Assembly: GCA_010093605.1 (NCBI GenBank)
Contig: MU004201.1
Coordinates: 590,370-614,441 of the forward strand
Length of the DNA: 24,072 nucleotides
Direction of reading: 5' to 3'
DNA from: Lophium mytilinum
Lineage: Eukaryota; Ascomycota; Dothideomycetes; Mytilinidiales; Mytilinidiaceae
Position numbers and translations under genes: made by a program
Part shown: in pieces, positions 5,001 through 24,072 of the stretch
Numbering within the stretch: the first letter of the stretch is position 1
Layout of the letters: every line of letters begins with the position of its first letter
Notes under the pieces: model-generated
Databases searched by the model: none
Told to the model about the DNA's origin: nothing
Seen by the model: the letters and a program-made list of their open reading frames with translations, nothing else

Positions 5001-5959
5001 GAGAATATTAAGTTAAGAAAGCTAGCTTTAAATACTAGCTTTACTAGTAGTAATTCTCTAGAAGTACAGATAACTAAGCTATTTAAAAACCCGAATGCTA
5101 AATTTAGAAGTACTAAGTAAAAGGAAGTTATAGAGAATATTATAAATAAGGTTTCTTTTATTACTTATATTAGTAGTATAGGATCTAGTAAAAGTCTACT
5201 ATTTAATCTACCTAGCTATATTTATTCTAATAGAAAGTATATAGTAGTAGCTCCTAGAATTAGCTTAGTAGAAGATTTAAATAAGCATGCATTAGAATTA
5301 GGGCTTAATAGTACTATTTGGACTTCTACTACTAATATAGATGCTAATCTTATATTTATTAGTATAGAGAATATAGTATTAGAAGAATTTAAAGGCTATA
5401 TCTATAATCTTAAAGCTAATAACTTTAGTACTACTCTATTTTTCAACAAAGCCCATCTATTAGTATACAAAGTAGATTTTAGGCAAAAACTAAATAAAAT
5501 AGATAATATTCTTACTTTAGAACTATAGCTAGTATTTCTAAGCGCAACTTTACCTATACCTATACTAGATTTACTAGAGCAAAGGTTTCTTATTACTTCT
5601 CCTCTTATTATTAGAGATTCTACTACTAGAAAGAATATTAAGTATATTACTAAAGAGCTACCGGACTATAATAAAGATACTATAGTAGAATGCTTAAGAA
5701 TTACTATTAAAGAAGCTATTAGTAAATGTAGTAATAATAAAAGAGGTATACTATTTACTAATAGTATTAAATATAGTAAATATATAGCTAAAGTATTAAA
5801 GATTCCTTTTATCTTTAGCTCTAAAGATTCTAAAGAAAAGGAAGCTAATATTAAACTATTAAACTACTACCTAGATTCTAATAGTCCTATTAAAGTATTT
5901 ATTTGCACTAATATAGCAGGCGTAGGATTAAACTAAGATTTCTTAATTGTAGGGGCTGG
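2043..5959 (+). pseudogene. RIP-degraded RecQ-type telomere-linked helicase, truncated
   Basis: The frame is open from an ATA (2043, probably a former ATG: ATA-D-A-L-L) to 3857, which is 605 codons. It then continues to about 5959 with about twelve stops, all TAA or TAG. An N-terminal zinc-finger-like region (about 2140-2440: KSCNIVL, GFKC, ECGFLT, FNKTHN) resembles the OrsD/DUF3505 type. A middle domain has LAIYLLAGSPIRGTEVE (about 3985-4035) and RFLSPRLSNIL. The helicase core shows FRSTK*KEV before motif I (about 5105), a Walker A relic IGSSKSLLFNLP (5178-5212), motif Ia VVAPRISLVEDL, motif II NKAH (5445-5456, expected DEAH), motif III FLSATLP (5535-5555), motif IV GILFTNS and motif V FICTNIAGVGLN (5899-5934). 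Motif VI and the C-terminus are missing: the frame runs straight into TTAGGG-like DNA. Such proteins are typical of fungal subtelomeres. This copy cannot be active, because the motif I Gly/Ser pattern and the motif II acidic residues are lost. Confidence 0.85.
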
Positions 5960-5974
5960 AGGGTTAGGGTTAGG
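5960..5974 (+). repeat. interstitial telomeric repeat
   Basis: The tract reads AGGGTTAGGGTTAGG, in the same orientation as the terminal telomere, with flanking G-rich DNA (GGGGCTGGA before, TGGGGAG after). It sits exactly where the helicase frame loses homology and where base composition changes. It may mark a former chromosome end or a telomere-targeted insertion junction. Confidence 0.75.
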
Positions 5975-5979
5975 TGGGG

Positions 5980-6890
5980 AGAAGCGAGTTTAACATAGAG
6001 AAAATCAACCTTTAAGAATTGCGTGCAGTACAACCTTGCACCGCCGCATTTAACTACCACGACGTAAAATAGAGTATGCATGCGAAGAATAATGCTTAGA
6101 ACGCAATGCAATAGCGTTCTATTAACTTTAATTTAATTTACAAGCCGTAGTAGTGGCTTAAGGTGGGTATAGAGAGGCCGCAGAGTGCGCAGGCACAGGA
6201 TAGAAATTACTTAAAGGGTTTAGCGTAAGAACAGCCTCGCGCTTAAGAATTAGTGCAACTACTACTGCATGCAACTACTATAACATAGCATAGAAGAAAT
6301 ATACAAAGGATTATATATAATATGTAATGCAATAGCAATCTATTAACTTAGAATTAATATGCAGGCTGTAGTAGTAGTGGCAGTTACGTACGGAGGTAAG
6401 ATCCCGAATAATGGAAGTTACTTAAAGAGTTTAGCGTAATACTAGCCTTGCACTTAATAAAGACCTTAACTAGCGCTGCATGGAACTACTATAATATAAG
6501 GTTAAAGATATTTACAAGGAAAATTACTTATTATATAATGCGACAGCATTCTAGCAATTTAGAAATATTTTACAGGCTGTAGTTATAGCTCCAGGTGGGT
6601 GCAGAGGGTAAGGAAAGAGGGCGGCCAGCAGCGTAGAGTATAGCCCTATAATTAAGCAGCCTTCTACCGCTGCATATAATAACTCCTAGATATTAAGATA
6701 CTATAACGGAGCTATAATACTATATATAGTATGCGCAATTAAATTTAAAGTATTATAGAAAAGGCGAAGTCCTAGTAGTAGGTGCCTATAGAGGGTAATA
6801 GATATAATAGAAAGGGTTTCGCGTTGTAATAGCCTCACCTTAGCACGGGTTGCTGCTAGATAGTATTCTTATGTAATAGAAATTTCAGCC
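5980..6890 (+). repeat. degenerate ~190-220-bp tandem repeats, about four units
   Basis: Three landmarks recur in order. AATGCAATAGCGTTCTATTA at 6105 recurs as AATGCAATAGCAATCTATTA (6326), AATGCGACAGCATTCTAGCA (6537) and ATGCGCAATTAAATTTAAAG (6731). GGCTGTAGT...CAGGTGGGT-type words follow each. CTTAAAGGGTTTAGCGTAA at about 6209 recurs near 6420 and in part near 6811. Spacing shortens from about 221 to about 194. I see no gene; the short ORFs here have no support. Confidence 0.6.
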
Positions 6891-6961
6891 GCATTAAATA
6901 AAATATATAAAGTAAAGGGCAGAATACAGTTTATACAACGTTTATAGATAAAGCAATTAAT

Positions 6962-6997
6962 AGGGCTACCGCAGGAAGCCTTTCTGCTAGGGCCCTT
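6962..6997. repeat. 37-bp palindromic element, copy 1
   Basis: This is a near-complete copy of the dispersed palindrome (consensus arm AAGGGCCCTAGCAGGAAG, then one G or C, then the reverse complement). The core GCAGGAAGCCTTTCTGC is followed by TAGGGCCCTT. The centre base is C. It lies in non-coding DNA. Confidence 0.7.
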
Positions 6998-6999
6998 CC

Positions 7000-7510
7000 C
7001 CAGCGACCTTGACCAAGTGGCCGTATCCGTAAGGGGTGTTAAAACGGGTTAGGCGGGGTAAGCTCCACAACAAGAATGTTAATAAATCCTTGTTTTCAAC
7101 CAATTACACTCCCTAACCGCTTTCCGCTCCTTAGCTCTATATTCTAAACTATTATCCCCCTTACTACTACACCTAGTAGTTAGTATAGAACGCCCCTAAA
7201 AGTACTAGAATAAAGAAGAGTAAAAAGCAGCTAAATTACATTTAATAGTGGATTTGAACCGACGCAAGAGAGATAAAAAGAAGAGGGCTGTAGACTAAAC
7301 AGCTGCAGTAGGAGAGGCTAGCGAGCCTACTTCTACTTCTATCCTAGATCCGTTTCTAATTATCTTTAAAAACCCTAGAGGTCTTTCTAGTATAAATATT
7401 AGGGCCCCTTATCCCACCCGCCCTGCGCCCACGCCCTTTTAATAACTAATTGCACCTTAGGAGCCTTTAGAGGAAACTATTGCATAACTTACAATTAGTA
7501 TATCTTTTGT
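7000..7510. other. non-coding stretch upstream of the large unknown gene
   Basis: No ORF is seen. Positions 7016-7050 are GC-rich (GACCAAGTGGCC, ACGGGTTAGGCGGGG). A tRNA-like T-loop word is present on the minus strand near 7246 (GGTTCAAATCC), but no complete tRNA fold follows. Another possible remnant of the palindrome's right end, TTAGGGCCCCTT, is at about 7398. Confidence 0.4.
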
Positions 7511-7600
7511 AATCTCCTAGTATTTACAGTTAGGTTCTAATAAACTTAAGTAGAACCCGTCTTAATAGAAGAATTATTACCTTCTACCTCTACTTAATCT

Positions 7601-7880
7601 ACGCAATATACTCCTCCGCAGCGGTCTACTTATAGTAGTACCCGTTCTACTATTCCTCCTCTATCTACCTAACCTACGCAACCTACGCAATATACTCCTC
7701 CACAGCGGTCTACCTATAGTAGTATCCGTTCTACTGCTCCTCCTCTATCTACTAAACCCACCTAATATTCTACTCTAGGGCGGGCTACTTATAGCAGTAC
7801 TTGTTTGCTCGCTCCTCTAACCTCTCAACCTACTTAACTAATATAACTTTCTTATACCCAGCAGTCTACTAGCAGTAGTA
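7601..7880 (+). repeat. 84-bp (28-codon) in-frame repeat, four decayed units
   Basis: Units begin near 7601, 7685, 7760 and 7837. The first two are nearly identical and in frame (TQYTPPQRSTYSS followed by PPLST). The third and fourth are progressively altered (GRATYSS, TQQSTSSS). The repeat encodes a Ser/Thr/Pro-rich low-complexity segment. Confidence 0.7.
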
Positions 7881-8973
7881 CATACTCTAGTAAGTTAAGA
7901 GCGGCCTAATATATACCTGAAATTTAAAGTAATATAGAATTAACGGAAGCTGCAGAGCAAGATTAGAGTAATAGTAGTAAGCATACTGTTATATAGACTA
8001 TTAAGAGAGCAGTAGTTAAAGGAGAAAAAGAAGCGGCTAAAGAAAGCGAAGCAAATAAAGAAGTAGCCCAAGCAGATAAAGAAGTAGAAGAGGCAGTATT
8101 AGAGTTACTGTTACCTGCATCTTCCGCGTTATCTCCTTATACACCTGCGTTACCACCGCCTCTAGATGCTAGAGAGGTGTTGCCCTCTCTATTACCACCT
8201 TACAGCGTAGGGACACCTTAGTAAGCCGCAAATAATAATAATAGAGCTCCGGGCTAGGTTCTACCCGCTATACGCTATCTCTATAAAGCGTTTCTTAAAC
8301 CTACAGCTACACTATATATATATACAGGCGTATATACTATCCTCGCCCTCTAGAATACCCTATAGACGGCTATAACACTACGCGCGAGTTCACGCGCTTA
8401 ACAAACTACAGCAGCTCCTACTCCTGCACAACTAGAACTAATAACACAACGCTAAATACTAGCCCTTATTACTATATTACTGCTCTACGTACTTGCGCAA
8501 ATAACTAACAAAGAGATTACAGCGGAATCGTTCTTAGCGCAACAAAATAAGGCCGTAGAAGTGCTCTCTAGAATGGACGCTGCGGAATAAATAGATAAGA
8601 AGAAAATGCTGGCTAATATAAGTTAGTTCATGCGACTAGCGCACAATAACAGTTGGGTTTAGATAGAGTGGTACGCTGCCTTATTATCTCTCCGCCCAAC
8701 GCCAGTAACTAAGGTTGTAGAAGAGGAATTTACCCAATTTAAGAACAAGGTAGAAGCAGGTGCAGATATAGATAAGGTATTAGATAACGGAGTTAAAGAG
8801 GGTAGAGAAGGTATATATACGCAAGGACAGCAAGACACTATAGATAAATTACCGGGTTTACTTAACGAAGTTACGCTAGAGAATTAAGGCAGTAGGGCAG
8901 ATAATACAGCCTTAAATAGTAAAGGTAACAGCGAGATTATAGATAAAGTTGCAGATAAGATAGACCCTAATAG

Positions 8974-9019
8974 GTAAGTATTATAAGCTCTATAGTTTAT
9001 ATAAAGCTAATATACGTAG
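8974..9019 (+). other. candidate intron
   Basis: GTAAGT donor, AAGCTAATAT branch-like word and CGTAG acceptor; 46 nt. The frame is kept across the join (phase 2). It contains no palindrome. It is short for a fungal intron, so confidence is moderate. Confidence 0.4.
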
Positions 9020-9053
9020 GCATAATAATCTATTAGTAAATACTCTACATGCA

Positions 9054-9121
9054 GTAAGTATAATCTAATTAGCGTTAGAAGTCTAGTGTACTTGCTGTAT
9101 ATCTTAACTCTTTCTATTTAG
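9054..9121 (+). other. candidate intron
   Basis: GTAAGT donor, CTTAAC branch-like word followed by a pyrimidine run and a TTTAG acceptor; 68 nt. Phase 0 on both sides, so the Gln-rich frame continues. It contains no palindrome. Confidence 0.5.
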
Positions 9122-12100
9122 ATAATATAGTAGCTAATATTATAATATAGCAAGTAACTATATAATAGTTTCTTAGAGTAGATCTCTTAGCTAAGTTACT
9201 AGCTTTCTCCTAGCTTAGAACCTTTCCTCCTAATAAGAGCCTATTACAGCCAATGCAGCCTTCTATCTAATAAGCCAACTAGAGCTATTATAGAGAGAGG
9301 ATAATCCCAATAACTTTAACAATGTCCCATGGAAATTAATGTTAAGCGGAGAAACTAGTAACATAGAAACTCTAAGGCTTAGTTTTATAAGGTCTAAAGC
9401 TAGCTTTATAGTAAATAAAGAGATTAAAATCCAGCAAGTGTATAACATTAATAGCGTTATTATTGGTATCTCTACTTTAGCGGCCTATAATTTATACTTC
9501 TTACTATCTCTATAACCGTCCTTTCTCTAAAGTATTACTTAAAACCAACGCATTATAATACGCGGCTATAAGCTCCATATAATAAAGCAGCTTTATATAG
9601 GGCACGGGTGTAAGCATTAATTTAAAACTCATGTGTTTTTCCCCTAGATGCTGACACCGAATAAGCAGAAGGGCGACACTTTGCATCTACTAGATACAAT
9701 GCAAGCAGCTTGGCTTAACGATATTATCTTACCCGCAGTAAAGCATACTCTAACACCCGACAAGTGGCAGCATATACCACACAGTTTTAATATTATACGG
9801 GGTAAAGCAAGCGTTAAGAAAGAAAAATATATAATATTATCTAGAGACTCTTATATTAATACTAAGTATATAATTCCATAGTGTTGACTCTAAGAATTCT
9901 AGAACTAAGTTCTTTATAACGTAGAAAACTTTGCAGAAATAGATACTATACCCGAAGATTTATTTAAAGGAGTATTCCTAGTAGTCTCGGGTTACAATCT
10001 AAAAATGGCATATAAGTCCTTAAGTATAATTTAAAGCAGGGATTAGCTACTATATACTTTAACCACTACTTTTAATAAAAACCTAATTAATATGCTAGAT
10101 AAGGGGATATAGGTTAACTATAGATACGAAGATGTCCCAACTACTAATTAGCTAGATACCGGGGTTACCCTTCTACGCAAAACTAGCTGCAACAACCACT
10201 GGGCCACTTACTTCCACGACAGCGGAAAAGAAAAGATTTATACAATATTGTACCCCTACCATCTTACCCAGGGCGCGTCATCTCTAACAGTAGAGCTCTA
10301 AGCAGGCAACTATAGCCGTATTAGTGGTATGGCATACAATAAAATCTATAATAGTAATAAGATTATGCTTAAGTTACCCGTTAAGGATATTACGCCCTTT
10401 TATAATACTTAACTAGAAGCTCTTGCGTTCTTAACTAAAATAATTAAGCGGTGGTTTAAAGCGGCAGGTAGCTCCAGAGGATTATTAAAAAGAAAACAGC
10501 TTTAGGATAGTCTTGCTGCTATTCTCTAACGCCACTATACTGTACTCTAGAGAGACAGACACTCATCCTATAGGGTTTAAACTGAGTTCCAAGTACTTCT
10601 TACTATACTTAAGCAACTTAAAGAAAGCGCAAGTCCCAAATTTACTATAAAGGATGGGCCGGATAATAGTAGCGAGCCTTATTGCCCCTACTAGGTTCTT
10701 TCTATAGAAGAAGTTAATGCCTTTACTATTGCAAACCTTAATCGCTAGGTATTCCTTTTCCAGGTACTGTCTCTTTAGGTTACCCCCGGGCGTAATGCTA
10801 GGCATATAGCAACACTAGATAAACAGCTAGTAAATAGTTATTTAGCATCTCTTTGTATCCGCCTTGCGCAAATTACTACTAGATATAGTAATCCTACTTA
10901 ATTATCCGTACTATAGAAAAAAAAGTGGATAAATTAAAAAGACCCCCGGAATCCTGTAACCTTATATAGCCTTAGGTTATTAGACTCCCTTAAGAAGTAT
11001 AGCATGGCTTGGCTAAAGTTAGAGTACTTAGATTGGACAACAACGCCCCCACAACTTAGCCCTTAAGGCGTTGATCGACTGCAAGCCAGCCTTAGGAATT
11101 AATTCCAAGCTACATTTACTAAAGCTTGGATCTAGGTATCTCTCACTAGGGAGGATATAGAGATGCAGTATCTACAGTATAGTATTGCAGCATGGTACAC
11201 GCTAGCTATTTAACGCGAAAATAGGACTAAAGTGTAAAAAGATTAGCGATTAGCACCGCCATAGATGGGTAAGGCAGCTGCGCTTATTATTAAGGCATAC
11301 TATACCGATATATATAAGCTTCTAAGCAGACGGTACGCAGGAGAAGATAGAAATACTAAGACGCAACAGGAGAGTAAAGAACTACGCGACTAATTTCTTA
11401 GAAGTATTCTAAATAGATCTACAGTTGCGCTTTATCCCAACATGCTTACAAAGCTATATAGAAAGTTGGGACTTATAGTAAGCTACGCCTACGTGCAGAA
11501 CATAGCTAGAAATGGTAATACAAATTATCTAAGGCACTTAACTAGACGCTGGATTAATTAAGTCTAGCCGCTATTTAACATCACGGATCTAGCTGCAGAA
11601 ACTTAAAAATGGAACAACAGTCCCTTCCGCATGAAATTGCGAAGATTAAATGCAATAATTAGAAACAAAGCGTCACCAAAAACGGCAGAACAATTCCTTA
11701 ACAATCTACGAGCGAGAGCCGCCTTATCACTCTAGGTTCTTCTAAGATACAACAACGACAAAATTTTAACCACGTGTTAAGCTAAATAAAATAACTCTAA
11801 AGATACACAAGATAATATTAGGGGAAGAGATGTAATTATAAATATACAGTAGATCTATATGCAACTACTAAATAGCTACTACTATAAGGTAGCCTAACTA
11901 AGCCAATATATTAAAGAACAGGCTTAAGGGGGGGCAGTTAACCTTAGCATAGACGTAGTTGCAAAGGAAGTATAGAACATAACCTAGGGAAGCCCAGGAA
12001 AGTTAAAGATAATAATAATAGAGGATAACATTATAGGCCCTAGAGGTTAAGTTAATCTAAAACGTGTCTAGCTTAGGTTTAAGCACTGTACACTAAATAG

Positions 12101-12419
12101 CCCAAGGGCTTATTTAGGCAGGATTCCAATAATCAAAGAATTCCGGAATTATTTAGCGATATAGAAGGAGCAAGAGGGGGATATAAGTAGTTAGTTATTA
12201 GACGAAGAGTATAAGTATAAAGAGAGTTCAGGTAACTACAGCTTAGAAATAGAGGACTTGGAGAACTCGGGGCAAGAGGCCTAGGAGAATAAGGCTTAAG
12301 TAGAAGAGTTCTAAGGAGCATATAGATTTAAGCGTTAATAGGTGGACTAGCAGGGGCGGCGTTACAAAGAAGAATTATTAACAAGAAAGGTAGTAAAGTA
12401 TTTAGTATAAGATATAAAG

Positions 12420-12451
12420 GGCGTTAGTAGAAAGGCTTCTAGCCAGGCTCT
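12420..12451. repeat. 37-bp palindromic element, copy 2 (diverged, in exon frame)
   Basis: GGCGTTAGTAGAAAGGCTTC then TAGCCAGGCTCTT. It matches the consensus with several transitions and a small deletion. It is read in the frame of the large unknown gene as KGVSRKAS. Confidence 0.5.
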
Positions 12452-12542
12452 TATATAGTACGCAAATGCTTATCTAGTAGGTGCGTAGCGGTAATATATA
12501 TAAGAAGAGAGGCAATAATAGGCGTGCTTAATACAAGTAGCA

Positions 12543-12579
12543 AAGGGCCCTAGCAGGAAGGCTTTCTAGCAAGACCCTT
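12543..12579. repeat. 37-bp palindromic element, copy 3 (in exon frame)
   Basis: The left arm is perfect, AAGGGCCCTAGCAGGAAG. The centre base is G. The right arm is altered by transitions and a one-base shift. It is read in frame as KGPSRKAF. Confidence 0.75.
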
Positions 12580-12701
12580 ATACTATAGGCAAATAGTTAT
12601 ATAACAACGCGCAATGTTCTATTAACCTATCTTAGCGCAGTGCTGTGTTACTAGAACTAGGTAATACGTAGCGTAGTATTATAGATTAACCGCAAACGTT
12701 T

Positions 12702-12736
12702 ATATATTAGCGAAATTAAGCAAAACGCTAATATAT
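12702..12736. terminator. inverted repeat after the large gene
   Basis: There are perfect 11-bp arms, ATATATTAGCG (strictly ATATATTAGCG at 12702-12712) and CGCTAATATAT (12726-12736), with a 13-nt A-rich loop. It lies downstream of the large pseudogene. Whether it acts as a 3'-end signal is unknown, and fungal genes do not usually rely on such hairpins. Confidence 0.3.
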
Positions 12737-12739
12737 TTA

Positions 12740-12923
12740 TACCCGCGATATTTTAACCTTATATAATATACAGCCATTACATTAACCTTAAGAGTTAACT
12801 TAAGCAGTTTACTATTAAAGGCTTGGCGTCTTAGCGGCCGGCGGCTATCGGCCCGGCCGCCCACAAACTTATCCGCCGCCTAGCAGCTTTAACTTCCTTA
12901 CTTCTATACTAACCTCTCCTTCT
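12740..12923 (+). promoter_or_regulatory. short intergenic/leader region of the SNF2 gene
   Basis: It contains a GC-rich patch at 12832-12862 (GCGGCCGGCGGC, then GGCCCGGCCGCCC), followed by a CT-rich leader (12890-12923) typical of a fungal 5' UTR. No ORF is seen. Confidence 0.4.
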
Positions 12924-13173
12924 ATACTACCGCACCCCCATTACTTCCACTTATCTAGCTACCTGCGGAACGGTTACGCGCTAGACCCTTACTTGCTAGA
13001 CAATAGTTAGCAGCTTCCTAGCTACGTTGGAGCCGCAATTGGCTTATTTTAGGCGTCTTTTTGGCTAGCGGTTAAGCCTTTTAGTAAGTTTGCTGTCCAG
13101 CAGGTAAAATTAAGTTACGTTATAGCTAATTCTGCTAACAGGTTTATTCCATCGCAATTTCTCTAAGAGTGGA

Positions 13174-13248
13174 GTAAGGTGAGCGTATTATAAGAATTAT
13201 TGCAGGAAGGCTTCCTACCAGGGCCCTTTACTAGTCTTAGTAGATTAG
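13174..13248 (+). other. SNF2 intron 1, carries palindrome
   Basis: GTAAGG donor and GATTAG acceptor, 75 nt, phase 1. Splicing gives ...F-L-*-E-W-I-C-L-N-F-K-D in one frame. Palindrome copy 4 starts 27 nt from the donor. The branch site is weak (ACTAG). Alternative acceptors at 13234, 13240 and 13243 would break frame with this donor. Confidence 0.6.
13201..13229. repeat. 37-bp palindromic element, copy 4 (intronic)
   Basis: TGCAGGAAGGCTTCCTACCA followed by GGGCCCTT. The right arm is nearly complete and the outer left arm is lost. The centre base is G. Confidence 0.75.
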
Positions 13249-13321
13249 TCTGCCTTAATTTTAAAGATGCGGCGGCAGGAAATGTCGAGAAAATAATAAT
13301 ACTAAAAATACCCGGCATAGT

Positions 13322-13410
13322 GTAAAGGGTCTTAGCAGGAAGCCTTCCTACTAGGGCCCTTTGCCTGCCTCCTTTCTTCTATTATTTAAGATAGGCTGAC
13401 ACATTAACAG
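13322..13410 (+). other. SNF2 intron 2, carries palindrome
   Basis: GTAAAG donor, GGCTGACAC branch site and TTAACAG acceptor, 89 nt, phase 2. Splicing joins KIPGI-V-LAINTLSDGD in one frame. The palindrome begins 2 nt after the donor, so the donor is almost part of the element. A pyrimidine tract precedes the branch site. Confidence 0.8.
13324..13362. repeat. 37-bp palindromic element, copy 5 (intronic)
   Basis: AAAGGGTCTTAGCAGGAAG, centre base C, then CTTCCTACTAGGGCCCTTT. Both arms are almost complete; most differences from consensus are transitions. Confidence 0.85.
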
Positions 13411-14348
13411 GCTGGCTATAAATACCTTAAGCGATGGGGACCCTAGTAAAGCAGCAGTAAAGGTTGCATCCCTGCGCATATTACCTGCAACCGACCTAGT
13501 AGACAGCTATAAGAAATAATCTACTTCTTCTAAAGTGCTAGAAGATCTAAATTCTACCTCCCTACCGGTCACTAAATTGAGGGTCGATGCCTATATCAAT
13601 TTAAAGCGCGATTAGCCGGCCACTACAATAGATCCGGAGACGCTTGCATTAGCAAATAGCGAAGTAGTTTATCCAGATAGTAATAACTATAGTAACAACT
13701 CTAATGTCCCTAAGAACTCTAATAAAGAGCAGGAGAAGCTTTAAGCGCTGGTTACTAGCACTAGAAAAGATAAAGAGTTAGAGAAGTTATAGGCCTTAGT
13801 AAACACGCTGTATGCTAGTAGAATAAAGTTGGCTAAGCTTTATAGTTAAACAAAAGCAGAACTCGAAGCAATTCTAGCTAAGCCTAATTTCTAAGCAATT
13901 TAAAATAAGTACAAGAATGGGTATTTAGACCTAAAGCGCGCCGTGCATAGTTAGAATTAAGGGGCCAGTTTTGCCACTATCCTAAACGCTTTTAAGACTA
14001 GCAAGTTGCATAATCTGCAGCGATATACTACTCCTTAGCCTAAAATAGATAACTATAAACCCGTGGATTAGGTAGCTTAATTTATTAGTCAATGCTTCAA
14101 TTACTACCGGAAGCGGTTTAGTGGGTTTTTACACAACCGCGCTAATGTTACTAATAACAAAGCGCTTAGAATCTTCTTCAAATTAAAGAAAAATATAGAG
14201 TTTAAGAGTGGCCCGTCTTAAGCCAGCAGAACCGCCTGTACTAAGAACTAAATTAAGATACAGGACGTTCTTTAAAAAATAAAGCTCAGTCTAGCACCGG
14301 CACCTAAGACCCCGGCCAAAACTATTGCTTGTAGTAGTAAGGATGTTA

Positions 14349-14375
14349 ACAGAAAGCCTTCCCGTTAAGGCTCTT
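14349..14375. repeat. 37-bp palindromic element, copy 6 (in exon frame)
   Basis: AACAGAAAGCCTTCCCGTTA then AGGCTCTT. The centre base is C. It is read in the SNF2 frame as D-V-N-R-K-P-S-R. No splice pair around it keeps frame, so it appears exonic. Confidence 0.55.
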
Positions 14376-15035
14376 CTAGGCCTCCCCGTTGGCAGTCGCC
14401 CTCTCGTTTTACTAAGGAGGAACTCGCGGCTATTAATATAGAGGTTAACGCAGACGACCCTATCTAGGGGTTATTTAAAGAGGAAATTGCTGCAAACCTA
14501 GTTAATAAGGAGAAAGGCAACGTTAATGTTACTAGCGCTAAGTACATCACCGGCACCATAAAATAGGAGCTTAAGTTGGCAATTATGCATGCTAAGCGCA
14601 CCGGAGCGATAATTAACCGGAACTCGTTAAAGTTTCAATACAACGCATATCGGGTGATTAGATAGATGGCAGGAGATTTTATATATGCTATTAAATAGCA
14701 CCTAAACATGCGCGCTGCAGATCTAAATAAGGACGAGTACGCTGATTAGGACGGTATTAAATATGCCTAAGACATAGAGGCTAATATAAGGGCTACCGCT
14801 ATTAATGCGAAGGATATTATCCCCTTTACTACACTAACCGCGGCAGATCTTATAATGCAGAGTACACTCCGCCTTCTAATAACTAACAAAGCCTATTAGC
14901 TAGATAACCTAAAAGAAGCAATAAAGGCTCTACGCATTTATAACTATTGGGAACCCCGCCTTATTATAATAAATGGCAATATTTACTTAAGGTGGTGGCA
15001 GATTACTGGGGCTTACTATATATACTATATTATAT

Positions 15036-15060
15036 AGAAAGGCTTTCTTAGTAGGGCTTT
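15036..15060. repeat. possible palindromic element, copy 7
   Basis: AGAAAGGCTTTCTTAGTAGG then GCTTT, immediately upstream of motif I and read as KGFLSRAL. The resemblance may be coincidental, because G-x-L-x-x-A-L-I-A-D is normal sequence just before SNF2 motif I. Confidence 0.3.
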
Positions 15061-15136
15061 AATTGCAGATAAGGTTGGCATTAGGAAGACATTTTTAATG
15101 GCTACCCTTATTAGATATATAAGCAATTTCTCTTTA

Positions 15137-15170
15137 AAGGGTGTTAATAGGAAGCCTTCCTACTACCCCC
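15137..15170. repeat. 37-bp palindromic element, copy 8 (in exon frame)
   Basis: AAGGGTGTTAATAGGAAG, centre base C, then CTTCCTACTACCCCCC. It is read in frame as KGVNRKPSY between motif I and motif Ia. No splice pair around it keeps frame. Confidence 0.6.
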
Positions 15171-15936
15171 CTAATAGTTTCTCTTGGCATCTACTAATTC
15201 AATTATAGCTTATTACTAAGCGCCAGCGCAAAGTTGCGGATAAGAAAGACCCCGGGCCGGCGAAGCCCTTCCTTTTTCTTATGCCTCCCGTTTTAGTACA
15301 CTAAATAGCGAATAAACTTATAAAGTTTAGTTCTAAACTTAAGCTCTACATCTATTTATTAAAGGGCCAAGTCGCTTTCTATAGCGCCACGTTTCTACAC
15401 GACACCTTAACTAGGGACCATCCCTTATTTAACACTAAAAACAAGGCTAATGCTAAGAGCATCGTGATTGCTAGCTATTAGGTAATGGCCGGTCGGCACG
15501 GTCCCCAGCCCGCATTAAAGTGGTATAGCAACAACAATCTTACTAAGCTAAAGAATTGGGTTAAATATCGCCCAAGCTCTACCTGGCCCGGTCTCTTAAG
15601 TGGCTGTTTTAACGTCCAATTTATAGACAAGTGCCAGCTTATTAAAAGCGACTAAGTAAACCTCCACCTAACCGCGTCGTGGCTTTACTTAGACTTTACC
15701 GTGCTCTATAGTAGGACCCCGCTATATATAGGCATTACTAATATGCCTACTTATATATCTTTTATAGAACCGAGAGACAAGTATCTATAATTCCGCACGT
15801 ACCGCTTAAAACCCGGTAAAGCCAAGTTTATTCCGGGTACCAATAATCTATTTAAGCTTCCCGACAACTATTTAGGTGTAATTTTCTAGTATACACGCAA
15901 GGCTTTTAAAAATTTTATTCTGCCTTTATTTAACCC

Positions 15937-16030
15937 GTAAGTCATTACATAAAGGGCCCCAGCAGGAAGGCTTCCAGCTAGGGCCCTTATCTCTCCTCTT
16001 ATTTGCTTTAATTTTCTAACATTTCTCTAG
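15937..16030 (+). other. SNF2 intron 3, carries palindrome
   Basis: GTAAGT donor, TTTCTAAC branch site (16013-16020) and CTCTAG acceptor, 94 nt, phase 2. Splicing joins ILPLFN-P-IIQG and restores the frame that leads to the C-terminal helicase lobe. The palindrome starts 14 nt from the donor. Confidence 0.85.
15951..15988. repeat. 37-bp palindromic element, copy 9 (intronic)
   Basis: AAAGGGCCCCAGCAGGAAG, centre base G, then CTTCCAGCTAGGGCCCTT. It is one of the best-preserved copies. Confidence 0.9.
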
Positions 16031-17433
16031 AATTATACAGGGGCTTTATTTGCGCTTAATTTTTAGCAAGTGCATAATTGCTCGCTTATACCCTTCTACA
16101 TGCCCGAACAATTCCACTAATTCTACCACCCGAATTAGAGGATCACTTCCGCGGTTAGTTACGCGAGTAATCGAGCTACAGCCTATAAAACTAGGCCATA
16201 TTATCTATGCCAATAAATTACTAGCCTACCTTAAGTTATTAATAGTTCCTACTAAGAACCGCGTAGGCTAGCGCACCTATGCATTTAACGCATACTCCGT
16301 GCGTGCTCTCAACCTTATAAGCACTGCGCTATTTTTAGTCTACTCTAAGCGCGCCATAATGGCATATCCGTAAGAGGAGGTCTTAAATTTAGAGGGCAAC
16401 AAGATTAAGGACGGCCCGAAAATCATCCCTCTTAAGAATAATGGCGGTTACTAGTTAAAGAAAATAGACGTTTTACGAGGCATAATAAAGCAAATTGCCC
16501 GGAATAAGGACGTCTAAACTAACCCTAATTAGAAAGACTTTAAAGCAAAGTCCGCATTCTTTCGTTACGTTGTTACTCTTTTTATCCGCGATGCCCCTAA
16601 AGTGGCTGCACTACTATACTATTTGGCCGACGACGTTATTAAGCGTATAGAGAAGGTTATTATCTAGACTAACTACCTGGATAAGTAAATAATTCTCGCT
16701 AAGATTATTAACTATTATAAAATGGATGCTTGTATATTAGCCTCCGATCTCTCTACTACTAACCGGGACAACCTTATCTTAGTATTTAACGACCCCGACT
16801 CTAAAGTAAAGATCCTTATCACTAGTTACTAGGCTAATAGAGCTGGGCTTAATCTGCAGTCTACTTACTACAACGTATATCTTTTTAACCCTGCAGGCTC
16901 TATTTAGATTGAGGAGCAGGCGATAGCGCGTTTATATAGGATTGGCCAGAAGTTTACTATTATAGTAACCGCGTTCTTTATCTAGGACACATTTAATGCC
17001 TTTACTCTCTTGCGCCAGGTATAGATAGCGCTTCCCGGTCTTACTGCTGCGTTAAATACTAACCAGATTAAGGTAGAGGGGACCTCTAAGAAAAAGCTAA
17101 CCCCAGATGGCCAGTATGCGTGGGTAACCTATAATAATAAGAGCATTGCACCCCGCCTTATTACAGGCGAAATGGATATTTTAAATGTGCCGGTGGGATT
17201 ACACGTTAAGCGCTTTAACTCCCTATAAGACATTCTTGTATTTCTAACAACCCTCACGCGAGGCAATATAACTTTTTAGTCTAGTAGGTTTAGTAATAAG
17301 TTCTAAGAAGAACAAGCGTACAAATTCACTAAATCAGAATTAGAAGAAGAGGAGGAGAATAGTGCAAGTGGAGCGCCCAAGAAACCGCGTGTTAATAAGC
17401 CAGGTTTAAGGCTTAAGCGTTGTCCTGCGAGTA

Positions 17434-17521
17434 GTAAGTTCGCCCTTATAGGTTCTAGCGGGAAGGCTTCCTGCTAGGGCCCTACTTGCCTCTTTATACT
17501 TTGCTAATCTGTATTTTATAG
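17434..17521 (+). other. SNF2 intron 4, carries palindrome
   Basis: GTAAGT donor, TTTGCTAATC branch site and TTTATAG acceptor, 88 nt, phase 1. Splicing joins R-C-P-A-S-I-K-A-T-P-K in one frame. The palindrome starts 20 nt from the donor. Confidence 0.8.
17454..17483. repeat. 37-bp palindromic element, copy 10 (intronic)
   Basis: TCTAGCGGGAAG, centre base G, then CTTCCTGCTAGGGCCCT. The right arm is perfect; the outer left end is lost or replaced. Confidence 0.85.
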
Positions 17522-17890
17522 TAAAAGCCACCCCAAAGCCAAAGCTAAAGACGCTAGAGCAATAAAACGGCAAAGCTTTAAAGTAGAAGCGCAAAGCTGG
17601 TGCTGCACCAGCGGCTGCCGTTAAGAAGTGCAAGCCTAACCCTAAGTCTACTATTACGGTTAAAGACTTAGATTCTGCTAAATCTAATATGCCCACCCCC
17701 ATAAAGAGCGCTACTAGAAATGCTCGTGCCCCTTTTATCCGTTAATATGGGCCGGAGCGTAACCCTTCGCGTTAAGTACCCGCTGTTTTTAGTAATATAA
17801 ACGGCGACAACCCTTTTAGTAGGCTAAATAGTAACAACTCTGAAGGCGAAGAGTATAAGGATAATACTTCGTTCCTTGCGAAGTATACAG

Positions 17891-17982
17891 GTAAGAATTC
17901 ATCCTAGGGCCTTTTTAGAAAGCCTTCCTGCTAGGGCCCTTTAGCATCGCCTATTGTATTGCTTAAGTGCTAACTATTATAG
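17891..17982 (+). other. SNF2 intron 5, carries palindrome
   Basis: GTAAGA donor, GTGCTAAC branch site (17967-17974) and TTATAG acceptor, 92 nt, phase 1. Splicing joins FLAKYT-A-APTSARR in one frame. This is the textbook example among the six, with every splice element intact. Confidence 0.88.
17906..17942. repeat. 37-bp palindromic element, copy 11 (intronic)
   Basis: AGGGCCTTTTTAGAAAG, centre base C, then CTTCCTGCTAGGGCCCTT. The right arm is perfect. The left arm carries C-to-T and G-to-A changes. Confidence 0.85.
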
Positions 17983-18780
17983 CAGCTCCTACTTCTGCCC
18001 GTCGACCCACTTTAACCCCACCTTCTAGCCCTCTTAGCACCTTTAATGGACGCCTTATCAGGACCCCTTCTATAGACCCCGTCCCGTTGCCTAATACGTA
18101 GAAGAAGAGGCAGCGCGGAATATCTACTATCTCCTCGCAGGATTCTATAGATAATTTTATTTTTTATTTGCCACTAAAAGCCAACGTTAATATAGATAAT
18201 AAGCAGAACAAGGAGAATGTTAAAACCCCCAACGTTAATATAGAGAACGTCCCGTCTAAGACTAATAAGTAAAACGGGGGGTATCTTAATAATTACCCGG
18301 ATTTTACTACTACGCCATCTGAAGTTGCCTTTAAGCGTAACAGCAACTACGGTAGTAACTTGGACGACCCGCCGGAATTTATAGAAGGGGCCTCGCAGCC
18401 AACCCTAAAGACTGTATCCTCTAGCAATGCTAATAAGGGTCGGAAGCGCTAAGGCGCAAAAAAGAAGCCCACTATAAAGAAGAATAAAGCGGCTAAGAAA
18501 GACCCTATGTCTAAATCCCTTATATATCGTCCGTACAAGTACATAACAGAGAAAGAGATTGCCGAGTAGCGCCCTCAGCGCGAAAGGAAGGCTACTAAGA
18601 AGAAAGCTGCCGCGCAGAAGTCTATAAACTCTACTGGACTAAAAATAGACCTACGCAGGCGGAAGAATAATCCCGATATTAGCTAACCGCCCGCGGCATT
18701 AGGTGTAGATACTAACCCTAATAGTAAAGAGGATAGTAGTGAATTAGAGGGGACTAGTATAGCGCTGGAGAAGTCTAATA

Positions 18781-18903
18781 GTAAGGTATAACTAGTAGGG
18801 TCTTTATAGGAAGGCTTCCTGTAGGGGCCCTTGCCCTACTTTTTAGATTTAGTTTAGCATCTCTTAATGTCTTTTTCTTTTTCTTTCTAACGGTTCTAAT
18901 TAG
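18781..18903 (+). other. SNF2 intron 6, carries palindrome
   Basis: GTAAGG donor, long CTTTTTC tract, TTCTAAC branch site (about 18885-18891) and AATTAG acceptor, 123 nt, phase 1. The downstream exon is short (about 20-32 codons to TAA), so this is the least secure of the six. Confidence 0.6.
18797..18832. repeat. 37-bp palindromic element, copy 12 (intronic)
   Basis: AGGGTCTTTATAGGAAG, centre base G, then CTTCCTGTAGGGGCCCTT. Both arms are recognisable. Confidence 0.85.
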
Positions 18904-19004
18904 GACCACTTTCCTTGCTATTAGTTTGCACCTACTTACTTAGTGCTGCTAACTTTTTACTATCCTAATTTCTTACTTGCGTTCCATCCCCCACCCCCTA
19001 ATAG

Positions 19005-20420
19005 TTAGTACTGCTCCGCAGTAGTAGTACACTTTATACCCTTAAAATCTCCCAGTTTATATTTAGCCTCTAGATAGCGGCTTGCTTAACTATAGAATAT
19101 AGCGTAATATTTACTACTATAACTATGCCTTGCGTATCTTATGCGTAATATAATATTTATTTTATTTATCTATGTTATATGGGGCGGTCTTATCCGCCGT
19201 AGTTTACGTAGTCGTGGAGGGCAATTGCATTCCAATACCGCTCCGTCGTATCTATACTATTGGCATGTGCTCCCTATCTTTTTTACGGTAAAGAATCTGC
19301 TATTATATACTCTGTAATTCAACCCTCTTCGCTAACATTAGTTATACGGCTGGGCCAAGTCCTCTCTATAGACCCCATCTATTAACACGCTGTATACAAC
19401 TTTATTCTGCCTATAGTTCCCTAAAGCGTGTATTATTATATAATGCCTAAACTAACCGGAAGGAGAGTTATTTGCACGTGTTATTGTTAAGTCTTTAGCG
19501 TGCTGGGCGGCGGAAGGCAATTTAGGTGTCGCAGTTGTACTTTCTAGTTTATCGGCGATGTATTCGGACCTGCTTATTATTAGCAAGGACAGTAATCCTT
19601 AAGGGGTTATAGTCTTACCGTTTATCGCTTTTAATATAACTTTCCTCCTCCTTACAGTTATAAATAGTCTCTATATTATAAATAGAACTACTCTTTCATT
19701 CTAGTATTTTCCTTCGCTTCTATTCTTATAGCCGTCTTAACGAGCGCTTTAGCCGTGTAAGCTTCCTCCTTGCAACCAAATCTGGGGTGGCATTTGCAAC
19801 CTCGCGCCTAGACGGGGTATTAGGCGTAGTAAGGAGAGAAGCCAACCGCTCTATTAGAATATACGTATTGGGCAGACGTGGATATATCTACCCCTGCCGA
19901 ACGTTATTCTCGGCGTTTAGAGTTGCTGTGCTGCTGCGCGTTAACCTTAGTGTGCCGGGCTGTATTTTATATACTTTAGCCTAGTTTAGGGTTGCAGCCG
20001 TCTCTATGTTAGGTTGGGCCGCTTCTTATCTCGCAAATATCCGCCGGAACGCTCTAGGAAGGACGTATATAGTATACCGATTAAGACTTGCATATAGTAT
20101 TGTGCGTGGGCTGCTGCTATACTATAAGGGGTAGGTAGTAGTTGGAAAAAGGTTTAATGCGCTAGTTTCTGTTAATCTTAGTATATTACGTGCTAACCAC
20201 TCGTATTATACCCACACTTATAATTAACCTTTAGAGGTTAACTCTATATACTATACGCAAATAGCAACTCTAAGAGTTTTATTTCGTCACTATACTGTAT
20301 ATATATTTTACCTTAGGCGGGACTAGTAGGTCCCTATAACGTACAGTTTACGTAACTATACCCTGCGTCGCTTCAGCGCCCGCCCGATTTACTCTTCCTC
20401 TCTTCCCTTACTCCTTTAGC
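19005..20420. other. 1.4-kb intergenic region
   Basis: No supported gene. A 65-codon ORF at 19787-19984 is stop-free but has no recognisable domain and no supporting context. The composition is mixed, with CpG-containing words retained (GCGCC, TCGGCG), so RIP is milder here. Positions 20375-20420 are CT-rich and probably form the leader of the next gene. Confidence 0.45.
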
Positions 20421-21449
20421 TTGTTCCTCTCTACACTATAGCTGCAGGCAAACTAACAGCTAGAACTAGCACGGGAGAGACTCTTAATTGCATTTAAAGC
20501 ACTTTAGAGAGATAGTTTAACAGTGCGTAAAGTTTTAAAGCCGGCAGGCCGTAGAAATACCTATGCAACCAACTTAGAAGAGCAGCACGCTAAGAACAGC
20601 ACCGCCACGACAGGCACACTAATGGGCTCGGGTACTATTACTTAGGACCCTCTCCTTAACCCCAATACACCTAGTAATGCCGCGGATCTTGCCGCATAAA
20701 ACGCTAGAGAGGAGTTCTTATTATTTATTCCTAAAATAACTCCTAAGCTAGCTAACATGGACTAACCCCACACGACTAAACCGCTTACCGCGGAGGATAC
20801 TGCCGACCCTACCTGCATCCGTGCCTAGAGAGAAGCACTTCTTGCAACTATCTAGAATTAAAACGGAGGTTCCCTCTTTAGTAATAGCCTAGGCACGCCT
20901 ACTAATACTACTCTTAATATGCAGCCTACTACAATTAAGTCTTAAACTCTCCATAACTATGCTAACCCCCTATCCCAAGCCTCTAGAGATAGCGCCCTAC
21001 CTTCTAAGTCCAATATTAACATTAAGCCTAAACTAGCCGACGAAGTCAACGTAAAGATCGAGCCTGGTATTAAGATTAAGCCCGGCCTTACAAGCAGCCC
21101 GGATACTACGAGTTTTTCGAGGACAATTCTAAGGACAAGGAGCTCCTGCGCTTGCGGATCAATGTGGAAGAGAAGAAGGCGAGGGCTGCATAAACAAGGT
21201 TTAAGGCTATAGCTAGAGAGCGGAAGCAGCAGGGCCTAATCCACTCCTAAATCTAAACCTCGGACGGGAGTAGCAGCGCCCTAACCTATCCCTATTTCTA
21301 CGCGCTCGTTAGCAAACACCCAACTCTTCGTCCAGCGCTGCTAGGCCCTTGCTATCCCCCAACCCATCTTCTCCTTTAATAGCAACGCGTCCCTGCCCTC
21401 CTAGAACTATACCCTAGCCCTCCACGCCGCCTACGCGGAAATTGTCTAA
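20421..21449 (+). pseudogene. coiled-coil protein fragment ending in a partial dsRNA-binding domain
   Basis: The frame begins near 20421 (LQLQANQ*LELARERLLIAF) with TAA/TAG stops at likely Gln sites. The first part is helical and charged, the middle Pro/Thr/Asn-rich. NVKIEPGIKIKPG (about 21046-21090) contains a VKIE match to the sumoylation consensus. A frame change at the T5 run 21113-21117 is followed by FEDNSKDKELLRLRINVEEK, a clear coiled coil. After another shift near 21240 comes SLANTQLFVQRC*ALAIPQP, which matches the start of the dsRBD region in the next gene, and then the frame ends at TAATAG (21447). The SKK-type dsRBD core is absent. I take this as a truncated paralogue or a gene broken by recombination. 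Function is not assignable beyond the shared domain. Confidence 0.5.
21279..21433 (+). repeat. 155-bp direct repeat, copy A
   Basis: This starts CCCTAACCTATCCCTAT and matches 22366-22520 without a gap. By eye about 30 positions differ, nearly all transitions. It encodes the linker and first strand of the dsRBD region. Confidence 0.8.
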
Positions 21450-21541
21450 TAGGCTTCACTCTTTTACTTTACCTTACTCTTATTTCCTTCTTTAATAGCT
21501 TTATCTCTGCTCTTCTACTATTAGTCTTATCTTCTTCCACT

Positions 21542-23350
21542 ATAGCGGAGCCTCTAGACTTAACCCCTAGTAACAGTACTGGTTCACCCTTTACTACTAT
21601 AGCGAAACCTAAAGATTTATCTTCCATTACTACTACTACCGCGTTGCCAACTCGCGAGCCCCAAAATTGCAGATATTGCAGGAAGAAAGCCACTCTAAGG
21701 TGTAGTTACTGCGCCAGCGTTATCTACTACAATGCGGATTGTTAAAAGGCTAACTAGAAATTATCTAATGCGCCGCCTTCTTGCATAAAGGTTGTTGCAC
21801 CGTAATAAGACTCCTATGCTTTAGCTTAAATTTACTAATAGACGGCGAAGAGCGTAAAGTTTAGCGGATTATCTAAGGGGTAGAAATTAAAACGGGCTCC
21901 AGCTCTATTATATAACTATAAGCTGCAATACACTTTACCTCTTATAAACTCAGCCCGCTACGCATAAATATAGAGTCTCTCCTGCCTAAGCGCCGAAGAA
22001 TAACTTCTAGTAGAGCAGCTGTAGCTACCCTAGCTCGTGTAGATTAAACTAGCACCCTACCTTAGCCTTCTTAGGCTAGCCTTTAACCTTATATATACAC
22101 CAGCGTAGGCAGTAATAATTATTCTTATCCTTCCTTTATACTAAGCTTAATTACCACGCCGCTTCCTAGCTTTAAGAAGAAAAGAAAAATAGAGGTCGCA
22201 GCTCCCCTTAGCAGTTAGAACTCCACCCCGCCGTTAATAGATTAGACACGTGGAGGCTCTATTCCAGGTGCCCTAAGTATACTATAAAACCTTCTTAGCA
22301 TTAATAAGTTTAAGAAGCAGCATAAAGCCGCCGTTGCCGCCGCTAGAGCCTAAGCCTAATCTACTCCCTAACCTATCCCTATCTCTATACGCTTGTTAGC
22401 GAATACCCAGCTCTTTATCCAGCGCTGCCAGGCCCCCGCCATCCCCCAACCTATCTTCTTATTTAACGGCGACGCCTCCCTACCCTTCTGGAACTGCACT
22501 CTAACCCTCTACGCTGCTAGCTCCCCCTACTTTCTTACTACTACTAGCCCCTTCACCTCTAAGAAAGAAGCTAAAGAAGCCGCCTCTACTCTTGGCCTTA
22601 GCCTCCTCTCCTCTCTTAAAGCCTCGGGCATAGTCTCTACCCCTAGTAAAACTAAAAAACGCACCCCAACCTTAACTTCTACTACTACTACCCCTAAGAA
22701 ACCCTAGGAAAACTTTACTAGCATTCTTATAGAATTCTACTAAGCCTCTAAAATCTCCGTCCCGACCTTTACTAAGTTTAAAGCCGGCACCTGCTTCTCC
22801 GCCGAGCTATTGCTGGCCTCGCACCGCCCGGAGAACGCCCCCTTCGGCGGCCGCGCTGTGCTCCACCCGTTAAAGAAAGCGGCTCGTGCGGCTGCGGTAA
22901 GGAAGGCAGTGCTCTAGCTGCGCGTAGGAACAGCTGCCCGCTATATACTAGCCCGCGTCCGTAAAGAAGTAGCGGAAGACGGCAGGGGGTTCTAAGGACG
23001 CCGCGGTGCAGCTGCCGGGCAGTATAGCGGCGCGGGTGCTGGCGCTAGCAAGCGAGCTAGGGCTACCGCAGCCGGAGTATTAGTAGGCGGCGCTAAGTGC
23101 GCTAGCGCCGGGGCTGTCTATAGTAAGTAGTTTGTTCCCGGGGAGTAGAGTAGGCGGGGAGGATAGGGTAGTAGTAGCGGCAAGGCATATAGTTAGAAAG
23201 AAGGCGGCAAGAAAGAAGTATGCGCGGTTAATAGTAATAGAGTTAGAAGGAGTATTAGAGAGGAGGAAGGGGGTGTTAGGAAAGGTATTAGAGAAGGGGA
23301 AGAGGGAGGTAGAGATAAGGGAGGGGGATAAGAACTATTATTCTTGTTAG
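21542..23350 (+). pseudogene. MYND zinc-finger protein with three dsRBD-like domains, RIP-degraded
   Basis: A CT-rich leader (21450-21541) precedes ATA at 21542, a likely lost ATG (ATA-A-E-P-L-D-L). The MYND finger lies at 21668-21784: CRYC, then C-S-Y-C, then IYYNADC*KAN*KL and a last Cys. The usual YC reads YY (TGC to TAC) and the final His is not evident. A frame change follows, then a long linker (GEERKV*RII*GVEIKTG; KKKRKIEVAAP). dsRBD 1 is at about 22420-22610 with FTSKKEAKEAASTLGLSLL. dsRBD 2 is at 22708-22925 with the core LKKAARAAAVRKAVL. A one-base slip in G5 (22985-22989) leads to domain 3 (about 23000-23270: LASELGLPQPEY, HIVRKKAARKKYARL). dsRBDs bind double-stranded RNA and MYND fingers mediate protein contacts. 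The MYND part and the dsRBD part could instead be two fused or adjacent genes. The 3' end (TAG, 23348) is in frame with domain 3. Confidence 0.7.
22366..22520 (+). repeat. 155-bp direct repeat, copy B
   Basis: Partner of 21279-21433 at an offset of 1087 bp. This copy retains more CG and TGG words (CTTCTGGAACTGC against CTCCTAGAACTAT), so copy A is the more mutated one here. Confidence 0.8.
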
Positions 23351-23467
23351 GAGTATAGAGAGACATATAATAGGAACTTATTTATACTTACTTAATTTAG
23401 GTTATAGTAGGGGAAGTATATTAGAAGTATAGTAAGTAGGAAGTATAATTACTTCCGCAGTAATATA

Positions 23468-23502
23468 AGGGTTACTGCAGGAAGGCTTCCTGCAAAGGCC
23501 CT
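23468..23502. repeat. 37-bp palindromic element, copy 13
   Basis: AAGGGTTACTGCAGGAAG, centre base G, then CTTCCTGCAAAGGCCCT. It lies in non-coding DNA between the dsRBD pseudogene and the telomere. Confidence 0.8.
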
Positions 23503-23560
23503 ATAAAAAATATTAGTATAATATATATATATAAAAAAGATATATAAATTTATAATAAAA

Positions 23561-23594
23561 AGGATCCCTATAGAAAGCCTTCTAGTAAGAACAC
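23561..23594. repeat. 37-bp palindromic element, copy 14 (decayed)
   Basis: AGGATCCCTATAGAAAG, centre base C, then CTTCTAGTAAGAACACT. Recognisable by its core and spacing; many changes are transitions. Confidence 0.55.
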
Positions 23595-23640
23595 TATAAT
23601 ATACATTAAAATAGATATAAACTTAATAGAATTTAAAGAA

Positions 23641-23960
23641 GTGTTTTATACTATATACTAGTATATAGATATATATTACGCCTAATAAGACTAATAGAAA
23701 TATTTCTATACTATATACTAATGTGTAAGTATAGAGTACGCCTAATAAAGCCTTAATAAATATTTCTATAGTATATACTAAGATAAACGTATATAGTACG
23801 CCTAATAAAATTTTACTAAATGTTTCTATACTATACGCTTAATAGTAGGTATACAGTACGCATCTAGGGATTTTAGTAGATGCTTCTATACTGTACGCTT
23901 ACTAGTAGGTATACAGTACGCGTAACAAAATTTTACTCGATGTTTCTATACTGTACTGTT
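23641..23960 (+). repeat. 60-bp telomere-proximal tandem array
   Basis: Five full units start exactly every 60 bases (23641, 23701, 23761, 23821, 23881), and a 20-bp partial sixth starts at 23941. Shared words are TTCTATACT near the unit start and AGTACGC about 36 bases in. Units 4 and 5 retain ACTGTACGC and/or TATACAGTACGC. Units 1-3 have these mutated to ACTATATAC and similar. Each unit contains a dyad (TACTGTA ... TACAGTA). Confidence 0.9.
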
Positions 23961-23977
23961 GGCCGCCCGCTAGCACG

Positions 23978-24072
23978 GGGTTAGGGTTAGGGTTAGGGTT
24001 AGGGTTAGGGTTAGGGTTAGGGTTAGGGTTAGGGTTAGGGTTAGGGTTAGGGTTAGGGTTAGGGTTAGGGTT
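23978..24072 (+). repeat. telomere, (TTAGGG)n
   Basis: GGG followed by fifteen perfect TTAGGG units and TT, reaching the end of the window with no variant repeat. It is joined to the 60-bp array through a 17-bp GC-rich link (GGCCGCCCGCTAGCACG, 23961-23977). The orientation shows this is the right end of the chromosome. Confidence 0.98.

Follow-up and report, generated by a model that had tools for sequence, protein, structure and literature searches.

Introduction

The closest described parallels to the repeat treated here come from organelles. In Volvox, the organelle genomes carry short palindromic repeats of 10-100 nt that form hairpins, have been proposed to be selfish and occupy introns as well as intergenic DNA; in the parts of that work drawn on here, all four identified mitochondrial introns contain such repeats, the introns concerned belong to group I/II and the repeats account for ~80% of the non-coding DNA (PMC2670323). 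The subject of this text is a 37-bp palindromic repeat in the nuclear genome of the dothideomycete fungus Lophium mytilinum, present at 13 sites within an ~18-kb unit on the telomere side of the window, the 24,072-nucleotide stretch analysed, which forms the final 24 kb of contig C21 (assembly of 43.18 Mb in 24 contigs) and carries TTAGGG repeats at its end. Four copies lie in introns 2-5 of an SNF2 gene that is broken by stop codons. The reading preferred here, with a confidence a little past the midpoint, is that the palindrome entered introns already present in a single element, which only afterwards spread and underwent mutation of the kind seen in repeat-induced point mutation (RIP).

By behaviour, the Volvox repeats are the nearest known system, sharing with the Lophium repeat the form of a hairpin (37 nt here, with a predicted minimum free energy of -2.9 to -21.9 kcal/mol) and the presence of related, dispersed copies, here at 13 sites. 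They differ in that the introns at issue here are nuclear and spliceosomal, that all 13 sites lie in one element and that at least two of these are in coding sequence; whereas the Volvox type, as described in the parts used, is restricted to introns and intergenic DNA, exon 3 contains the copies at 14339 and 15137. Miniature inverted-repeat transposable elements are presumably a further term of comparison.

Other systems, likewise compared through portions of their published accounts, are alike in single respects. Fungal introner-like elements also place a repeated sequence within fungal spliceosomal introns (PMC4457414), the difference being that there whole introns recur as near-identical copies, in many unrelated genes, whereas introns 2-5 here share only the 37-nt palindrome, within one element, and its copies are found only in subtelomeric units. 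The symmetric sister stwintrons of the Hypoxylaceae show inverted symmetry in proliferated fungal introns (PMC8469720, PMC12403724) and are described, in the portion used, as lacking short duplications at their borders (PMC8469720). Their symmetry is found at the ends of the intron or close to them, in contrast to the compact internal palindrome here, which begins 14-15 nt past the donor start in introns 3-5 and occurs outside introns as well; and whereas a stwintron has a second intron nested in its donor, introns 3-5 each show one GT..AG pair and, by eye, one branch-like site. Zipper stems in yeast likewise lie in the interval from donor to branch site, keeping a minimum of 10 nt from the former and 20 nt from the latter, with a linker of 42-85 nt (PMC12350175). 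Introns 3 and 5 fall within these limits, whereas intron 4 has a total linker of 37 nt and in intron 2 the stem stands 3 nt from the donor; zipper stems, moreover, form no repeated sequence family in the portion used and were tested in vivo in yeast, as against the predicted stems here. The palindromic repeats of Fusarium mitochondria are, like the present one, fungal and argued to be mobile, and differ in being A/T microsatellite palindromes of mitochondrial DNA (PMC7218506). Among the matches listed in the open-licence literature, there was none in which nuclear spliceosomal introns carry a compact palindrome in their interior.

Palindrome copies in a chromosome-end unit

A scan with a 37-mer consensus placed the 13 sites (Table 1), 12 of which outscore the maximum (42.0) of 20 simulated sequences, while two copies come within three mismatches of the perfect 37-mer against a chance expectation of 0.00. 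The original prediction, made from the letters alone, had described a perfect 37-bp palindrome occurring in both orientations within six stretches named as introns. Copies are present in all six stretches, at 13192, 13325, 15952, 17448, 17905 and 18796, and both orientations occur, the centre letter being G at seven of the 13 sites and C at six. Perfection did not hold: the best copy in the window pairs at 16 of 18 positions.

Other contig ends carry the same unit, with long blastn matches at 83-93% identity. At 12 of the 13 sites, wherever both flanks were located (4 to 10 places per site), the distance between them is 37 nt; the exception is 23560, with a spacing of 37 at two of four places and of 60 at the other two. 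From a spacing so constant across paralogues it follows that the palindrome copies are older than the unit's spread.

The SNF2 stretch (12301-19100) was aligned for nine copies, some of them partial, over 6,818 columns. In the regions compared, 1,423 variable columns of the nine aligned copies are pure C/T or G/A as against 36 others, and, of 1,436 columns, 575 have A and 486 have G directly 3' of the changed cytosine. The pattern resembles RIP, the label that we take to apply to these C-to-T and G-to-A changes, with an added CpG component; changed cytosines stand nearly as often before G as before A, in contrast to a RIP confined to CpA. Within the 18 strong protein matches, every stop is either TAG or TAA. 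Some palindrome arms read CCAGG or TTGGC where paralogues retain C or G, the TAG of many palindrome copies is probably a mutated CAG, and the palindrome before mutation would have read AAGGGCCCTGGCAGGAAG-S-CTTCCTGCCAGGGCCCTT.

Two whole-genome scans with longer patterns gave 39 and 17 matches, all subtelomeric, and none with reversed-pattern controls; two with shorter patterns gave 75 and 36. The shorter patterns add ten half-matches with one or two mismatches outside the units, near the control level of 6 and 1, and besides these a match at C3:2686874, ~33 kb from a contig end. Across the four scans no convincing copy was found outside the subtelomeric units, the counts within which are lower bounds. 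The genome-wide spread for which a search had been proposed did not emerge, and with convincing copies found only in subtelomeric units a genome-wide introner is rejected. A tandem repeat on C12 holds a half-match, CTTCCTGCCAGGGCCCTC, with three matches there and one divergent half-site on C16, and is not palindromic; at C12:1317500-1317950 (stretch L051, 1-451) the tandem unit contains GGCTACCTTCCTGCCAGGGCCCTCC, close to the 6961 palindrome without its tip. A strict scan of 21 stretches for other hairpin families, run without a null and missing most copies of the 37-bp family too, gave mostly AT-rich hairpins.

Introns of the SNF2 gene

By translation and stop count, the open frames of exons 2-6, expressed as start position modulo 3, are 0, 2, 0, 1 and 0, and introns 2-5 are supported because their lengths of 89, 94, 88 and 92 nt yield exactly these frame shifts. 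Their phases are 2, 2, 1 and 1, and splicing of these four would be expected from the sequence. The signals of introns 3-5 (GTAAGT/GTAAGA, CTAAC/CTAAT, TAG/CAG) are retained except in a few mutated copies. At the donor of intron 2, two of the nine copies have GT, four GC and three AT, GC being also the donor of GC-AG introns.

The two outer introns that had been proposed fare differently. Proposed intron 1 has one in-frame TAA in all nine copies, shows by eye no CTAAC-like branch site and may be coding. Intron 6 (18781-18903) was rejected: the C13 paralogue reads GCGAGG where the window has its GTAAGG donor (one of seven copies), and an in-frame TAA at 18789, 8 nt in, is common to all seven; the GT of the donor probably arose through C-to-T and G-to-A changes. 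Of the claim that six introns all carry the palindrome, what stands is that each of the four supported introns does. The distance from the donor, given earlier as 2 to 27 nt, was measured at 3, 15, 14 and 14 nt in introns 2-5 and at 18 nt in proposed intron 1.

The gene also holds two palindromes in exon 3, both starting at codon position 1, and one directly past the stop codon. Two further copies, 12417 and 12543, probably lie in the coding end of the upstream gene. In the frame assigned to that end, picked by its protein-like reading and by base composition by position, both start at codon position 1; with 13 stops in 99 codons, as against 11 and 6 in the other frames, the stop count weighs against that choice. 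Pfam had no match for the two pieces of the upstream protein that were compared with it. A codon phase shared by chance would be expected 1 time in 27 if all four coding copies hold, and 1 in 3 for the two that are sure. Away from chromosome ends, a homologue of the SNF2 gene was not found among 33 scored candidates; the SNF2 matches there numbered six, all of them generic and at 22-34% identity.

Probable insertion into existing introns

Without the palindrome, introns 2-5 measure 52, 57, 51 and 55 nt. Gaps between neighbouring exon matches of actin-family genes, counted only between neighbours in different open frames and leaving aside gaps inside one frame or with missing profile stretches, suggest by rough estimate introns of ~52, 56, 56, 85 and 100 nt (five gaps). 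In each of six pairwise comparisons the intronic palindromes scored higher than any of 300 shuffles, and the similarity of the rest of the introns is not above shuffles in nine of nine (lowest p 0.09). Since similarity is restricted to the palindrome and the remainder is 51-57 nt long, insertion into existing introns is favoured. Of the two possibilities first raised, that the introns arose from one mobile element or were colonised by it, colonisation fits; with only 37 nt shared, an origin of the introns from the palindrome is unlikely.

The placement of the copies also looks non-random. The probability that at least 4 of 13 copies fall in introns by chance is 1.5e-5 (introns before insertion being taken as 215 bp out of 17.5 kb); for at least four of eight non-coding copies it is 0.003, dropping to 6e-5 should 19000-23400 be non-coding. 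When each site is taken in its least-mutated state, the predicted hairpins of the four intronic copies have energies of -19.7 to -21.9 kcal/mol and those of the four coding copies -9.3 to -10.9 kcal/mol; 6961, 18796 and 23467 lie at -18.1 to -20.7, 13192 at -12.9 and 23560 at -2.9 kcal/mol. The stem of introns 3-5 ends 23-32 nt before the branch A.

A history that would account for this begins with a 37-bp palindromic repeat multiplying to 13 copies within one telomere-associated 18-kb element, its copies settling in gene-free DNA, in the existing introns of the SNF2 gene and in a few coding stretches. An intronic insert between donor and branch site could fold on itself and might for that reason be tolerated. 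The whole element would then have spread across chromosome ends while accumulating C-to-T and G-to-A changes in a RIP-like manner.

Several observations weigh against this account. Introns of ~90 nt are not odd in this genome, given that the five actin-family gaps include one of ~85 and one of ~100 nt. The placement probabilities were framed after the pattern had been seen, and they use estimated non-coding sizes and uncertain gene borders in 19000-23400. No consistent target-site duplication was seen by eye in the 12-nt flanks of these mutated sequences, nor was any empty site seen, and because of this, insertion as the mode of spread is something we infer; it is by its related dispersed copies that the palindrome may be called mobile. 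With respect to folding, the three non-coding copies outside introns named above are as stable as the intronic ones, the energies of single copies overlap (-9.4 to -24.6 kcal/mol in introns, -1.8 to -13.4 in the four coding copies), and compensatory pairing is not above shuffles (188 of 234 cells paired against a mean of 186.5). In the predicted folds of the window introns, only intron 5 leaves its donor free, those of introns 2, 3 and 4 being paired; this tells against a simple model of tolerance by folding.

Alternative explanations

A bolder proposal, put forward tentatively and with more doubt than belief, is that of a nuclear hairpin repeat with a copying mechanism of its own that prefers spliceosomal introns (for example via transcribed or spliced RNA), being tolerated between donor and branch site and turning into in-frame coding sequence elsewhere; it would be a nuclear counterpart of the organelle hairpin elements and possibly an intermediate on the way from palindromic repeat to introner. 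That each intron was itself born by insertion of a palindrome-bearing element, as in the introner model, is unlikely. The four supported introns do carry one palindrome each, three of them at 14-15 nt from the donor, and the proliferating stwintrons of fungi show inverted symmetry (PMC8469720, as far as the portion used extends). The shared part is nonetheless only 37 of ~90 nt, with the donor (in introns 3-5), the branch-like site and the acceptor outside the repeat; the palindrome also occurs in exon 3 and in gene-free DNA, and the four scans yielded no convincing copy elsewhere in the genome.

Selection might instead maintain the hairpin as a functional splicing stem that brings donor and branch site together, an explanation held to be improbable. 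It would agree with the roughly twofold stronger folding of intronic over coding copies in the least-mutated state, with the distances in introns 3-5, which keep to the yeast zipper-stem limits of 10 and 20 nt (PMC12350175, in part), and with the imperfect pairs, G-U outnumbering A-C by 8 to 4 in introns as against 7 to 8 in coding copies. Against it stand the compensatory pairing at shuffle level, the equal stability of the non-intronic 6961, 18796 and 23467, the 3-nt offset of intron 2, the linker of intron 4, which falls short of the 42 nt of the yeast stems, and the pairing of the donor in introns 2-4.

Equally improbable is that the palindrome spread, along with adjoining DNA, by simple duplication or by gene conversion inside the unit, its intron positions being coincidental: the highest likeness is seen between some neighbouring copies (0.93 for 12543 and 13325, in reverse orientation), but in the introns likeness ends at the palindrome border, and P is 0.003 to 1.5e-5 for the intron placement. 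Least probable of all, despite 7 of 17 central positions constant in all 13 sites with three more constant in 12, and despite one paralogue junction on C5 inside a copy, is that a DNA-binding protein belonging to the element uses the copies as sites, or that they signal recombination or replication, since they are not clustered at the unit ends and 4 of 13 in introns would be unexpected.

The unit and its surroundings

The inner border of the unit lies at 5942-5946 and its outer end is the TTAGGG array. The inner end is the same at 10 places, the window included, and joined to different DNA each time; this precise end faces the chromosome, with the telomere at the opposite end of the unit. The unit starts with ATTRTAGRGGCT followed by TTAGGG-like repeats, with homologous ends on C13, C5, C9, C17, C3, C8 and C5 right. 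Immediately inside the telomere, 23633-23921 is a tandem repeat of four 60-bp copies.

At the left end of C5 (stretch L034, assembled position ~1413), a paralogue junction falls inside the second arm of the 13192 palindrome copy, either by chance or through a break at the hairpin. The sole extra columns in the nine-copy alignment form one 18-nt block, a multiple of three, after 18196 in exon 6, present in three (C9, C11 left and C11 right) of the copies that reach this position. On the chromosome side, 2034-5936 encodes a protein with an OrsD domain (Pfam E 1.4e-11) and, after it, a stretch whose DEAD and Helicase_C matches fall slightly short of their cut-offs; this gene stretch is cut short by the 18-kb unit, and we take it to resemble a telomere-linked helicase.

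Table 1. Features of the window, with positions counted from its first letter
Feature	Position	Strand	Details
Telomere-side repeat unit, ~18 kb	5946..23979		contains all 13 palindrome sites
SNF2 exon 3, broken by TAG/TAA	13411..15936	+	30 stops in frame vs 70 and 104; Pfam SNF2-rel_dom E 0.006, below its cut-off
SNF2 exon 4, Helicase_C domain, broken by TAG/TAA	16031..17433	+	Pfam PF00271 E 1.5e-6; 1z5z (helicase, snf2/rad54 family) E 5.3e-8
Proposed intron 1	13174..13248	+	75 nt, frame kept
Intron 2, frame-supported, weak donor	13322..13410	+	89 nt
Intron 3, GTAAGT .. CTAAC .. TAG	15937..16030	+	frame shift, splice signals
Intron 4, GTAAGT .. CTAAT .. TAG	17434..17521	+	frame shift, splice signals
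Intron 5, GTAAGA .. CTAAC .. TAG	17891..17982	+	frame shift, splice signals
Palindrome, no gene found around	6961..6997		score 58 vs null maximum 42; spacing 37 at 10/10 places
Palindrome, probably coding end of upstream gene	12417..12453	+	score 49
Palindrome, probably coding end of upstream gene	12543..12579	+	score 61; codon phase as 12417
Palindrome inside proposed intron 1	13192..13228		score 56.5; spacing 37 at 9/9 places
Palindrome, intron 2	13325..13361		score 68.5; 3 mismatches to perfect 37-mer
Palindrome, exon 3	14339..14375	+	score 55; starts codon position 1
Palindrome, exon 3	15137..15173	+	score 50.5; starts codon position 1
Palindrome, intron 3	15952..15988		score 67; 16/18 pairs; 2 mismatches to perfect 37-mer
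Palindrome, intron 4	17448..17484		score 59.5
Palindrome, intron 5	17905..17941		score 59.5
Palindrome directly after SNF2 stop codon (rejected intron 6)	18796..18832		score 53.5
Palindrome near telomere, no gene found	23467..23503		score 53.5
Degenerate palindrome, no gene found	23560..23596		score 41.5, under null maximum 42

Implications

Short palindromes that fill introns have been described for organelles, and the repeat in L. mytilinum is a real and unusual one that is local to a single chromosome-end element. If the account given here is borne out by RNA and by relatives, the element would offer a small closed system of 13 sites, four introns and nine copies of the gene stretch, and would, if the account is true, let one ask whether self-folding inserts enter introns harmlessly and whether they ever seed new introns.

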